Source: Chloroflexota bacterium (GTDB lineage Bacteria; Chloroflexota; Anaerolineae; Aggregatilineales; J027). Taken from it: 64,000 nucleotides of DNA. The notes below the pieces were generated by a model. It was not told the origin of the DNA and searched no databases. It saw only the letters and a program-made list of their open reading frames with translations. Position numbers and translations under genes: made by a program. Location of the stretch: NCBI GenBank assembly GCA_024434115.1, contig QMIT01000003.1:62001-126000 (forward strand), in the 5' to 3' direction. Shown here one piece after another: positions 18,190 to 62,019 of this stretch (the stretch's first letter is position 1; the number at the start of each line of letters is the position of its first letter).

Positions 18190-18230
18190 GGTACAGTGTT
18201 TAGAAAAACCAAATTTTGTTGAGGCTGCCG

Positions 18231-19445
18231 ATGATAAGTTATCTAAAACAAAATCCAGTGGTAGCATCATTCCTTGTAGGGGGTGTGGCTGTAGTGGTGG
18301 CAACCGCCGTCGCCGTCGCTATCATTACTTCTGGTGACGACGAAACACCGCCGCCATCCACCCAACAAGCCAATGTTGTCACAACTACTGAAGGACCATT
18401 TATAACGTTGGAGACACCACCTAGCACGGTGGACGTTGGGATAGCTGCGCCGCTGCGTATCCGTGTCGAAGATAGTCAAGGGATTAGTTTTGTATCGGTG
18501 ACTTTAGGTGATGAAGTCGTATGGCGTCCAGATGTGTTAGAAGGACAAAAAATCATTTACACCACCTACCCTTGGATACCCGAAACGACTGGTGAATTTT
18601 CCTTCATGGTCAATGCCCAAGCGGTAGATGGACGCGCCGCCGCCGAGGGATTTACCGTAACCTCTGGTTGCTGCCCACCGGAGGGAAATGTCAATTTAGG
18701 TTATACCGTACAGCCGGGGGATGATCCGGTCAGTATTGCCGCGCAGTTGGGGGTCTGTTTTAACGAGCTATTGGCTGCCAACCCCGGCCTTGCCCAAATT
18801 CAGGAAGGCGATATTCTGACCATTCCCTATCGTCCCAGCGACGAGACTGAGGAGGAATTTGACCCTGATTCGTGCGGAGATGCTCCAGATGGCTTTTTTG
18901 ATGATCCTGCTATCCAAGAGATTGTGCAGCAGGTTGCTGAATCTGAAGCCGCCAATGGCCCGCAGCCCTATCGAAACAGTCGTGTCCCAGTCGAAACTGT
19001 TGACATCACACGCGGGTTTGGCTGCGCTGAATTTTATACGGGGTATCGCGGTACGGATTGTCCCGACAATATGCCGTGGTTCCACACGGGAATTGATTTT
19101 TCCATTCGGCAGGGATCGCCCATCACTATATTAGATGGTGGGACGGTCACCCACGCTGGGCCAGATACTACCAGCAATGCCGATTGTTCGAGTACACGTG
19201 GTTCACAGCCCCCTCACAACGGCTATGGTCGGCATGTCCGTATACAACTGGGGGATTATATGTTCCTCTACGGGCATCTCAGCGGGTTGAATACCGGAGT
19301 TGGGCGGGAATATGAAGGCCCTGGTTGGATTATTGGCTATGCGGGTTCTACAGGCTGTTCAACGGGATCACATCTACATTTGGAAGTGCGGCTCGACAAT
19401 AAGCCTATTGACCCGGCAATCTATATCAATCAGGATGCGGAGTAG
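18231..19445 (+). CDS. Secreted LysM and M23 (LytM) peptidoglycan peptidase
   Basis: This 404-residue membrane-anchored cell-wall hydrolase or LytM factor starts at ATG 18231, with GAGG 6 nt upstream. An N-terminal membrane helix (residues about 10-33) is followed by an Ig-like segment (TVDVGIAAPLRIRVED). A LysM repeat (YTVQPGDDPVSIAAQLG...GDILTIPY) binds glycan strands. The C-terminal M23 zinc endopeptidase has HTGIDF, YGHLSG and TGSHLHLEV, carrying the metal and catalytic His/Asp residues. Such enzymes cut peptide cross-links or activate amidases. The stop codon lies within a few bases of the left end of the IsrB element. Confidence 0.88.
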   Translation: MISYLKQNPVVASFLVGGVAVVVATAVAVAIITSGDDETPPPSTQQANVVTTTEGPFITLETPPSTVDVGIAAPLRIRVEDSQGISFVSVTLGDEVVWRPDVLEGQKIIYTTYPWIPETTGEFSFMVNAQAVDGRAAAEGFTVTSGCCPPEGNVNLGYTVQPGDDPVSIAAQLGVCFNELLAANPGLAQIQEGDILTIPYRPSDETEEEFDPDSCGDAPDGFFDDPAIQEIVQQVAESEAANGPQPYRNSRVPVETVDITRGFGCAEFYTGYRGTDCPDNMPWFHTGIDFSIRQGSPITILDGGTVTHAGPDTTSNADCSSTRGSQPPHNGYGRHVRIQLGDYMFLYGHLSGLNTGVGREYEGPGWIIGYAGSTGCSTGSHLHLEVRLDNKPIDPAIYINQDAE

Positions 19446-19446
19446 A

Positions 19447-19672
19447 AACCGTCAATTACCCCACGCCTGAGGGTAGGGGCTTGTGGGAAGGGAAGGCCAA
19501 TCGCCGACTCACAACGTAAGTGTTGACTAGCCAGTTAGTAACTAGCTGTCTGGGCGTGGCAGCCCAAAACATAGGGTGGATGCTTCCCTAGTCTGCCTTC
19601 TCTGTGACGGCCAGTGGCGAAGGGATCAGTTGCTCAGTCTGTAGAGACGTTAAATACTGTAAGGAAGAATAG
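19447..19672 (+). ncRNA. Omega RNA (HEARO-type) scaffold of the IsrB element
   Basis: This 226-nt non-coding stretch directly precedes isrB on the same strand, where IscB/IsrB guide RNAs are encoded. Visible pairings are a long-range 9-bp helix AGGGAAGGC (19489-19497) with 19595-19603 (one wobble), TCGCC (19501-19505) with GGCGA (19616-19620) as a possible pseudoknot, a hairpin 19525-19550 (GAC/GTC, AGC/GCT, AGTTA/TAACT), GGGC/GCCC (19552-19565), TAGGG/CCCTA (19572-19590) and GTCT/AGAC (19637-19648). A 5' C-rich hairpin lies at 19459-19479. By family rules the guide is the sequence just upstream of the scaffold, here the 3' end of the M23 gene. The isrB ribosome site AAGGA (19661-19665) is inside the 3' end. 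Confidence 0.75.
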
Positions 19673-20716
19673 ATGCCCCAACAATTTGTCCCAGTGGTGG
19701 GCCGTACAGGTAAACCATTAATGCCCACTACCCACAAGCGAGCCAACAAACTGATTCCCAAAGGACGGGCCGTTCGTAGATTTGACAGGGGGTTGTTCTA
19801 CATCCAACTGCTTGACCGTGAGGATGGCTATACCCAACCGATAGCCGTCGGGATTGATCCCGGTTCCAAAAAGGAGGCGCTGACGGTCAAATCAGAATCG
19901 CACACTTACCTCAATATCCAAGCTGATGCGGTGACATGGGTCAAGGAGGCTGAGGAAATCAGTACGAGAATGCGGCGGGGACGGCGTTATCGCAACACCC
20001 CCTATCGTCCATGCCGTCCTAATCGTCGGCAAGGGCAGTTTCGCTTGCCACCGAGCACCCACGCTCGATGGGGGTGGAAATTACGCCTATGCCGTTGGTT
20101 AGCCCGTTATTATCCCATTCAAGTCTTTGTGGTGGAAGACATCAAAGCTGCCACCCGACAAGGACAACCCCGTTGGAACACCTGTTTTTCACCGCTTGAA
20201 GTGGGCAAGCAGTGGTTCTATGCTGAACTTGGGAAACTCGCCGAAGTGCGAACGGTGCAAGGCTACGAAACTAAACAACTGCGGGATACGCTTGGACTTA
20301 AGAAATCCAAAAACAAACTGTCGGATAAGTTTGAAGCCCATTGTGTGGATAGTTGGGTCTTAGCCAATAACTACGTTGGCGGGCATACTACAGTAGACAA
20401 TCCTGCCATGCTCAACATCACTCCCTTACGTTTCCATCGGCGACAGCTTCATGCCCTCCAATATAGCAAAGGCGGCGAACGGCGTCCCTATGGCGGCACC
20501 TTGAGCATGGGCATCAAACGCGGGACATGGGTCAAACATCCCAAGTATGGGTTGTGTTATGTGGGTGGGACCAGCAAGGGACGGATTAGCCTGCACGACA
20601 TGGATTCGGGCCAGCGGGTGTGTCAAAACGCCAAACCAGAAGATTGCATTATCTTAACGACTGCCAGTTGGCGAATAAAAAAAGAAAGGAGTAAGGCGCT
20701 GACTCCCCATGGCTGA
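19673..20716 (+). CDS. isrB: IsrB: RNA-guided RuvC-only nickase-type nuclease
   Basis: This 347-residue protein has the IscB/IsrB layout without HNH. The N-terminal PLMP domain has GKPLMPTT (13-20) and an RRxR segment. RuvC-I has Asp62 in VGIDPGSKK. An arginine-rich bridge helix follows (about 98-145, RMRRGRRYR, RPNRR). RuvC-II has Glu155 in VFVVEDIKA, and RuvC-III has His223 and Asp226 in EAHCVDSWVLAN. The C-terminal PLMP/target-interaction region has KRGTWVKHPKYG. Only 68 residues separate Glu155 from His223, too few for an HNH insert. Characterised IsrB proteins nick one DNA strand under omega RNA guidance, and the intact residues suggest this copy is active. Such proteins are commonly annotated RRXRR domain protein. 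Confidence 0.88.
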   Translation: MPQQFVPVVGRTGKPLMPTTHKRANKLIPKGRAVRRFDRGLFYIQLLDREDGYTQPIAVGIDPGSKKEALTVKSESHTYLNIQADAVTWVKEAEEISTRMRRGRRYRNTPYRPCRPNRRQGQFRLPPSTHARWGWKLRLCRWLARYYPIQVFVVEDIKAATRQGQPRWNTCFSPLEVGKQWFYAELGKLAEVRTVQGYETKQLRDTLGLKKSKNKLSDKFEAHCVDSWVLANNYVGGHTTVDNPAMLNITPLRFHRRQLHALQYSKGGERRPYGGTLSMGIKRGTWVKHPKYGLCYVGGTSKGRISLHDMDSGQRVCQNAKPEDCIILTTASWRIKKERSKALTPHG

Positions 20717-20725
20717 AGACAGGGG
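20705..20725 (+). repeat. Right-end hairpin of the IsrB element
   Basis: CCCC (20705-20708) pairs with GGGG (20722-20725), extended by TG/CA and C-G pairs around a TGAA loop. It spans the isrB stop codon (20714-20716). A matching CCCC/GGGG hairpin begins the left end, as expected for subterminal hairpins read by Y1 transposases. Confidence 0.6.
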
Positions 20726-20744
20726 TATCCGCGCTGAATTTTCG

Positions 20745-22664
20745 ATGAATTTGCAACGGTTGAAACAACGCGCTCATGCTTTTGCGACGACGCCCATTAG
20801 CACCACATTACGGGTAGCAATTGGTTTGATGACGGTAATTGTCACCCTCGTTACCCTCTCAGATTTAATGCCTGCTCCTTTGGCAGGCGTTTATCTGGTG
20901 GAAGCCTCATGTGCTGCGATTCCGGGGGCGTCGCTCTATCAGCAAGATGAAGATGATAAAGTCGAATCCTTCACCATTCGGCTGACCCTGCCAGATGGTA
21001 CACCTTTAGCGGGTGTCTGCCTCACCTTCACTCGTGATCGCGGCCCCGGCGAAGCCCCCGAAATCGTGGCCCAATGTACCACTGATGCCGATGGCAAATG
21101 TACCGTCATGATTCCCGGCGGCGTCATTACGGTGAATTTTGGGAATACCAAGATCGGGGGTGTCCAAGTAGACAGTTCGCAAGGCCAAAATACATCCGGC
21201 CTTAATGATGCTTCATCAGGCGGACTCACCTATTATTTCCCAGCGGATCAACCCGCCGATGAGCCTGTCGTGGCTACACCCGGCGACGGAGGCACCATTA
21301 CCGTAGACCACGCCACCACGAATGAAGACGGTGGATTAGAACCTTTACCCGGCAGCCCCACCACCGATTGGCCCGATCTTCCGCCCGATTTTGACGGCGG
21401 TACAACAGGTGGTGTTGACCCATTCCCATTTGGTGATTTACTCCCACTCCCCGAAGGCACGGTCACGGTACGGTTTACCCCGATCATTTTGCAGACCATC
21501 GAGTTTTATAATCGTGCCTACTGCTACTATGCCACCCGCGCTGGAGGATATGCCCGTGCCCCTGCCGATAGCGGTTCGTTCCTACCGGGAGGTGGGCAAT
21601 ATTTCGATCTAGGGGCGGTGCTCAGTGGTGACAGTCGGCCTGCCCAAATTCTAATCGCCGAGGAACAACCATTTGACATGGTGGTGCAGTGTTGGGGATG
21701 GCAAGGCACCGAACTCAAAGAAATCGGCACCAATACCCTATCGCAAGTTCGGGACAATTGGCGAGGACAGACCTTGAGCGTTGCAGGTTCAGGCTTCAGT
21801 CTCAGCTATTCACTGCCCTACGACCTACCTGAAATCCAACCCCAAAATCCGCGCCTGCCAGACATTGCGGTACTTTCGGATTTATCAGCCATTGCGGATT
21901 TGCCTGATAGCGCAAATTTGGGTGGTGTTGTGGCGGTACCGCGTGCCCGATTTAATGACGCAATCTTTGCACCCCGTAATTTGCAGTTAGCAAACAATCA
22001 ATTGACATGGAGTTTTGACGGGGAAAACCCCATTGGCGGATTCCGAATCTATCGCAACGGCTATCTTATTGGCTCAACGCCCCCCGAAGCCCGGGGCTGG
22101 ACAGGTGATGGGCTTGTGGTGGCGGAATGTGGTGAGAATACGGAATTTACGGTGACAGCCTTTAGTGGCGGTCAAGAATCTTTACCCTCTAACGTCGTAA
22201 CGGGTGAATCTCCGGATTGTGCGGCCCAAGTCACCGTCACTTTCGATCAATTGATTTTGAATGATGTGAACGATTGTGATGGCGAACAGTGTGGCACACT
22301 GCCCGAAATCTACGGCTATCTTTTGGTTAACGATTCAGCGGTATTTTTCGGTGGGGCCTCCAGCAGTCCACAATATGCCAAGTTGAATTCGGGAGAGGGC
22401 TTCAGTTTCAACCAAATACTAGCCCCATTTGGCGCAACAAATCAGCTTACCGTCGGCCTCAGTTCCGATGAGGGATTAACCATCGAAGTCGCTTTGTTTG
22501 ACCATGATGCCGAAACATCTGACGACCTTCTGTGCAGTTGGCAAGAACTTCTCCCCTCGCGGGATGCAGCAGGTTGGCAATCGCAAAATGGTCGTACCAT
22601 TAGCCGCGATGGAGTGGCAGGCGAAGCAGCCTGTAATTTTAGTGTGGTTCTGACAGTGGAATAA
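20745..22664 (+). CDS. Secreted, membrane-anchored surface protein with Ig/FN3-like domains
   Basis: This 639-residue protein has an N-terminal membrane helix (about residues 20-43), then a carboxypeptidase-regulatory-like segment (FTIRLTLPDGTPLAGVCLTF...TDADGKCTVMIPGG). A Pro/Asp/Gly-rich linker (about 160-230) leads to a Trp-rich region and an FN3-like segment (APRNLQLANNQLTWSFDGENPIGGFRIYRNGYLIG). The C-terminal beta domain is Asp- and Cys-containing. No catalytic motif was found, and a structural or adhesive envelope role is likely. ATG 20745 is chosen because an earlier in-frame ATG at 20709 lies inside the IsrB right-end hairpin. No good ribosome site precedes it, which may be a result of the insertion. 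Confidence 0.7.
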   Translation: MNLQRLKQRAHAFATTPISTTLRVAIGLMTVIVTLVTLSDLMPAPLAGVYLVEASCAAIPGASLYQQDEDDKVESFTIRLTLPDGTPLAGVCLTFTRDRGPGEAPEIVAQCTTDADGKCTVMIPGGVITVNFGNTKIGGVQVDSSQGQNTSGLNDASSGGLTYYFPADQPADEPVVATPGDGGTITVDHATTNEDGGLEPLPGSPTTDWPDLPPDFDGGTTGGVDPFPFGDLLPLPEGTVTVRFTPIILQTIEFYNRAYCYYATRAGGYARAPADSGSFLPGGGQYFDLGAVLSGDSRPAQILIAEEQPFDMVVQCWGWQGTELKEIGTNTLSQVRDNWRGQTLSVAGSGFSLSYSLPYDLPEIQPQNPRLPDIAVLSDLSAIADLPDSANLGGVVAVPRARFNDAIFAPRNLQLANNQLTWSFDGENPIGGFRIYRNGYLIGSTPPEARGWTGDGLVVAECGENTEFTVTAFSGGQESLPSNVVTGESPDCAAQVTVTFDQLILNDVNDCDGEQCGTLPEIYGYLLVNDSAVFFGGASSSPQYAKLNSGEGFSFNQILAPFGATNQLTVGLSSDEGLTIEVALFDHDAETSDDLLCSWQELLPSRDAAGWQSQNGRTISRDGVAGEAACNFSVVLTVE

Positions 22665-61464: not shown

Positions 61465-62019
61465 TCAAATGCGGGGTAGGGTAATGCTAATCTGATCTTG
61501 ATATTTGCCCTTGCGATCCCCATAGGAAGTTTCACACGGTTCATCGCTTTCAAAAAAGAGCAGTTGAGCAATGCCTTCGCCTGCATAAATGCGGGCTGGT
61601 AGGGGAGTCGTATTGCTAATTTCAAGGGTGAGGAATCCCTCCCATTCAGGCTCGGCGGGCGTTACATTTAAGATTATACCGCATCTCGCGTAAGTGCTTT
61701 TACCAACACATACAGCCATAACATTGCGAGGGATACGAAAGTGTTCGACGGTACGGGCAAGGGCAAAGGAATTCGGTGGCACAATACAAATATCACCCTT
61801 AAAATCTACGAATGAGGCGGGGTCAAAATGTTTGGGGTCAACAATCGCGCTGTTGACGTTGGTAAAAATTTTAAATTCATCGGCAACCCGAATGTCATAA
61901 CCATAACTTGACACCCCATAACTAATGACGCCTGCGCGAACCTGTTTTTCAACAAATGGCTCAATCATGCCGTGCTCAAGTGCCATCTTGCGTATCCAAT
62001 GATCGGCTTTAATACTCAT
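61465..62019 (-). CDS. dcd: dCTP deaminase
   Basis: This 184-residue trimeric enzyme deaminates dCTP to dUTP in pyrimidine deoxynucleotide supply. Family motifs are clear: [12 protein letters not shown], the nucleotide site [10 protein letters not shown] and catalytic Glu in [17 protein letters not shown], then [13 protein letters not shown]. It starts 16 nt after the glycerate kinase stop. The AGGAG ribosome site (62032-62036) overlaps that stop codon, so translation is likely coupled. Spacing to the ATG is rather long (12-13 nt). Confidence 0.95.

Follow-up and report, generated by a model that had tools for sequence, protein, structure and literature searches.

The window analyzed here, a stretch of 64,000 nucleotides (positions 62,001 to 126,000 of contig C14) from the genome of a Chloroflexota bacterium (G000), contains an element of 1,294 bp (19451-20744) inserted between a gene for a LysM/peptidase M23 protein and the gene for a secreted protein (Table 1). 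A first-pass annotation of the same DNA had placed the element at 19447-20727, which had to be corrected by alignment of its copies and by comparison with orthologous empty sites in congeners; the ORF of 347 aa it had reported is real, and the hairpins it had described as bounding the unit are present at both ends. The interrupted gene begins directly behind the element, and the start assigned to it by the mechanical ORF caller (20709) is wrong.

Table 1. Features of the element and its flanks (positions within the window).
Feature	Position	Strand	Evidence or remark
Upstream host gene, LysM + peptidase M23	18216-19445	+	stops 5 nt before left end
Predicted guide, 20 nt of host flank, CAGGATGCGGAGTAGAAACC	19431-19450	+	directly 5′ of left end
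Left end and omega-RNA scaffold (HEARO-like), starts GTCA	19451-19672	+	HEARO match, 11-copy alignment
Terminal CCCC/GGGG hairpin of left end	19459-19479	+	
isrB, RuvC nickase (predicted) without HNH, 347 aa	19673-20716	+	ORF, profile searches, alignment, AlphaFold2 model, dN/dS
AGGAG, predicted replacement Shine-Dalgarno, overlaps isrB 3′ end	20687-20691	+	conserved directly 5′ of right-end hairpin
Right-end hairpin, two-part, about 41 nt	20695-20735	+	
Last base of element (right boundary)	20744	+	copy alignment, empty-site alignment
ATGA, target-adjacent motif (TAM) of the empty site and downstream start codon	20745-20748	+	start codon conserved, four congeners' empty alleles
Downstream secreted protein gene (interrupted gene)	20745-22664	+	

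Judged from its sequence and its modeled structure, the protein is an intact IsrB. It matched Pfam RRXRR (E 6e-30), and its best solved relative was DtIsrB (PDB 8dmb; E 2e-44 over residues 6-299; 38% identity across the aligned part). IscBs aligned with only the first ∼120-160 residues, and the NCBIfam IscB model was matched over its first half (RuvC) only, below its cut-off. The sequence motifs read previously were all confirmed: PLMP at residues 15-18, the arginine-rich bridge helix (R101-R107 among the conserved residues), the complete set of RuvC I-III catalytic residues (D62, E155, H223, and D226), which were invariant in an alignment of 88 relatives, and the 68 residues separating E155 (RuvC-II) from H223 (RuvC-III). 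The AlphaFold2 model built with 88 sequences (pLDDT 87, pTM 0.85) was used instead of an earlier prediction from 10 close sequences, which was poor (pLDDT 44); when the fold was searched, 8dmb ranked first (E 2.7e-27, TM 0.78-0.82), followed by IscBs and then by RuvC. Neither the model, for which a check for an HNH insertion had been proposed, nor the NCBIfam IscB match, nor the fold comparison revealed an HNH domain in the window protein, which thus has RuvC without the HNH nuclease that accompanies it in IscB. The profile searches (RRXRR, NCBIfam IscB, and 8dmb) agree with the initial assignment to IsrB and not IscB. Of the RNA-guided nuclease with intact RuvC that had been claimed, the intact RuvC stands; the enzyme is likely a nickase rather than a double-strand nuclease.

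The IscB model matching over the first half only might also be taken to mean that the protein is a decayed remnant or a fragment of an IscB. This reading was rejected as having next to no likelihood: the match to DtIsrB is nearly full-length in both sequence and fold, full-length relatives are numerous, and dN/dS between isrB copies (0.05-0.12, that is, about 0.1) indicates purifying selection and thus a protein kept functional. Apparent in-frame stops in the isrB of Microcoleus lie upstream of the true ATG and are hence meaningless.

An RNA-like region 5′ of the gene had been noted as well, and a search with the HEARO covariance model had been suggested for it. The model (RF02033) matched over its full length at 19451-19632, that is, from the very first base of the element, with E 3e-4 for the search run and a score of 31 bits, which lies below the curated Rfam threshold (gathering score 83). 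An IscB relative in a member of the same family (G005) scored 109 bits with this model. When 11 copies from genus and family were aligned over 222 nt, they shared a fold of 39 pairs, 11 of which had changed on both sides with pairing kept. Because of these two-sided changes, together with the full-length albeit subthreshold HEARO match, the omega-RNA is judged to be real yet divergent from the Rfam model.

The genome of the window carries three isrB genes (84% DNA identity) at unrelated loci, and a fourth match in it comprises 51 bp of the right end alone. Further copies were present in two congeners (G001 and G004) and in the family member G005. Similarity among the aligned copies begins at GTCA and ends just before ATGA. 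Comparison with orthologous empty sites of congeners, located via the downstream genes, resolved five insertions of 1,288-1,295 bp, each exactly between leader and start codon and none with a target-site duplication. A solo right end (L010:1501-1562; G000:C9:481606-481667), consisting of AGGAG, hairpin, and spacer with no omega-RNA or isrB, immediately precedes the ATGA start of a gene for a PA14/SH3 surface protein; it may be a remnant or a ribosome-binding module that has been retained.

The lack of a linked tnpA, from which the first-pass annotation had concluded either mobilization in trans or domestication, is supported: no Y1 transposase was found in the genome of the window, and in G001 and G004 none exceeded the cut-off. 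One is present in most of the other IsrB hosts tested. Among the four Y1 loci examined, none was an autonomous partner with matching ends. Three hosts without Y1 transposase, and an element sitting in the leader of a host gene, would fit a domesticated IsrB, an immobile element turned host regulator of the neighboring gene. Against this, similar elements occupy different genes in the congeners, where the empty sites are clean and no locus is conserved, and both the catalytic residues and purifying selection have been retained, which makes domestication very improbable. As the insertion sites differ between species, the element is mobile rather than domesticated, and its movement would most simply be due to a transposase that acts in trans or has been lost since.

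Within the predicted guide lie the last bases of the upstream M23 gene and what is likely the native Shine-Dalgarno sequence of the downstream gene. Three congeners have the identical 20 nt in their empty alleles, each time with ATGA next. Four of the five elements have guides without mismatch to at least one congener empty allele, and the guide of the fifth differs by two TAM-distal mismatches; ATGA follows in every case. Where the element is present, the sequence next to the guide is GTCA or GTAA, and the element should therefore not target itself. The guide of DtIsrB is 20 nt long and its motif, NTGA, lies on the 3′ side; the TAMs of IsrBs in vitro are NTGA, NTG, or NTGG (PMC9581776). The ATGA at the empty sites is compatible with an NTGA-type TAM for the RNA-guided nicking predicted for the window IsrB.

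The position of the element relative to coding frames was determined across lineages. Within the genus, all five testable insertions directly abut the start codon of a conserved gene, and a start codon follows all seven right junctions, solo right end included; the genes behind them include those for a PBP2-type transpeptidase, a NifS-like aminotransferase, an ABC permease, and a hydrolase. A wider set comprised 80 genome loci and 42 viral-contig loci. A regex search located junctions for only 44 of these loci and an automatic hairpin search over all of them picked hairpins inside downstream genes; junctions were taken from lineage alignments, which fixed 41. All 22 cyanobacterial ends are at ATGA, and the 19 poribacterial ends are at ATGA (17) or GTGA (2), amounting to 39 ATGA and 2 GTGA, or 41/41. 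A frame of at least 50 codons opens at 33 of these 41 junctions and a short ORF at the remaining 8; the proportion for ATGA sites in the same flanks is 33%. Among the 33 frames are those for NadA, FabF, and thioredoxin-like and LpxC-like proteins, the last two named from reading of the translations only. Overall, the downstream families were PBP2, NifS-like aminotransferase, ABC permease, alpha/beta hydrolase, solute-binding protein, FabF, and NadA. Of 11 Chloroflexota junctions, two (L013 and L026) open no long ORF; L021 is rearranged.

Beyond these sets, G005 contains about eight IscB copies of 396-442 aa (L029-L036), and most of their readable right ends stop at ATGA or ATGG before a coding frame. 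As related Chloroflexota IscBs thus often end in this way, the start-codon rule extends beyond IsrB. About 40 IMG/VR viral contigs (L148-L189) encode an IsrB 45-66% identical to the window protein, and many of these elements end at an ATGA gene start. In a metagenome-assembled genome labeled Cyclobacteriaceae (L073, JALHRJ010000002.1), there is an IsrB that shares 70% identity with the window protein and has a right end like those of Chloroflexota, reflecting either inter-phylum transfer or binning contamination.

In Chloroflexota and Poribacteria, the right end has a common layout: AGGAG, a two-part hairpin of ∼42 nt, 7-10 nt, and ATG. Pairing of the window AGGAG with the anti-Shine-Dalgarno sequence was calculated at −8.2 kcal/mol versus −4.6 for shuffled sequence. 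A Shine-Dalgarno-like motif precedes the hairpin at 8 of 10 Chloroflexota ends and 17 of 19 poribacterial ends, with mean pairing energies of −7.4 and −6.3 kcal/mol, respectively, compared with −3.4 and −2.2 for the shuffled controls; it was absent from all six cyanobacterial ends in which a hairpin was found (only six had one). The frame in which AGGAG is read within isrB differs between the two phyla (AAG GAG versus AGG AGC), which argues for selection at the nucleotide level. Going by these sequence features, the right end looks like a replacement ribosome-binding site for the invaded gene; alternatively, AGGAG could contribute to the RNA fold or be bound by a transposase.

The placement at start codons might also result from survivorship, that is, insertion at any TCAT/ATGA of which only gene-sparing copies remain, with a right end that plays no part in translation. 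ATGA alone is plausible as a transposase target motif. The window contains 641 ATGA on both strands, ∼39 of them non-coding and 12-16 at gene starts, so that, by chance, start codons would make up about a quarter of the tolerated sites. However, finding all seven genus junctions (solo right end included) at start codons has a calculated probability of ∼2e-4 under a null of 29%, and the succession of AGGAG, hairpin, spacer, and ATG is conserved in two phyla despite the different isrB frames of AGGAG. Survivorship is therefore considered a possible but rather unlikely explanation.

The reading preferred here, which we hold with good confidence, is that of a non-autonomous IsrB/OMEGA (HEARO-type) element at an ATGA start, with a guide from the host flank, nicking of the empty allele, and rescue of translation by the right end. 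It builds on the observed protein and RNA identity, exact boundaries, start-codon placement, agreement of guides with empty alleles, purifying selection, and occupation of multiple sites. The element has inserted exactly between the host 5′ flank and the ATGA start codon. Read-through RNA from the host would contain the host flank as guide and the left end as omega-RNA, and would also serve for translation of isrB. Around the element, neither promoters nor terminators were found above chance level. The IsrB-RNA complex would nick alleles with an uninterrupted site (guide, then ATGA), leaving its own site uncut since GTCA comes after the guide at that site, and nicking would favor copying of the element into the empty allele or its retention after excision. 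The right end would provide AGGAG, a hairpin bringing it close, and a short spacer before the ATG, and the downstream gene would therefore still be translated. Mobilization would depend on a transposase acting in trans. At one locus of G001 (L017:2815-2936, minus strand; contig C42), a SAM-I/IV riboswitch lies just upstream of an IsrB element before a NifS-like gene, and omega-RNA and isrB may therefore be riboswitch-controlled there.

In more general terms, we lean slightly toward the view that IsrBs, and related IscBs, are specialized invaders of gene starts, for which the TAM is the start codon (ATG or GTG, then A), the guide is the host leader, the right end is a portable ribosome-binding module keeping the gene expressed, and guide RNA and isrB are transcribed from the host promoter. 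If true, this would explain the origin of the promoter for a 5′ guide that lies outside the OMEGA element and the ability of such elements to spread while sparing the genes they invade, and it would provide a natural reason for NTG-type motifs in the family, namely, their match to start codons. The open-access papers searched, which covered IsrB biochemistry and HEARO nucleases, contained nothing on start-codon insertion or a ribosome site at the right end. The original HEARO paper reportedly describes ATGA or GTGA beside HEARO elements, and the adjacency itself may thus already be known. The element type is known; what is new is the functional reading of its position.

The six IsrBs of PMC9581776 stem from Desulfovirgula, Crocosphaera, Dolichospermum, Calditerricola, a Burkholderiales bacterium, and a viral metagenome contig; none is named as Chloroflexota, which, as far as these six go, fits the earlier remark that no characterized member from this phylum is known. 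The window element resembles DtIsrB (Desulfovirgula thermocuniculi; PMC9581776) in size, domain order, catalytic residues, fold, and 5′ omega-RNA, and the NTGA-type TAM of DtIsrB is compatible with its ATGA; it differs by a protein only 38% identical over the aligned part, another phylum, and an activity that is predicted only. With HEARO RNA and IscB-HEARO systems (PMC9755519), it shares an RNA starting GTCAA...CCCC, most of the consensus layout, and an ORF 3′ of the RNA, and like IscB relatives of the same order, it ends at ATGA; unlike them, its RNA scores well below the RF02033 gathering score and its protein has no HNH. Subterminal hairpins at both ends, a fixed tetranucleotide at one flank, and no target-site duplication seen are also features of IS200/IS605-type non-autonomous elements, but neither the window element nor the genomes G000, G001, and G004 contain the Y1 TnpA of that family. 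Finally, as in the homing or retention of TnpB-type transposons (for example, ISDra2 TnpB; PMC8612924), the guide is taken from flanking host DNA, so that the empty site is the target. In contrast to these, the guide of the window element lies at the 5′ end and the TAM on the 3′ side, the enzyme is predicted to be a nickase, and the TAM is the start codon of a host gene.
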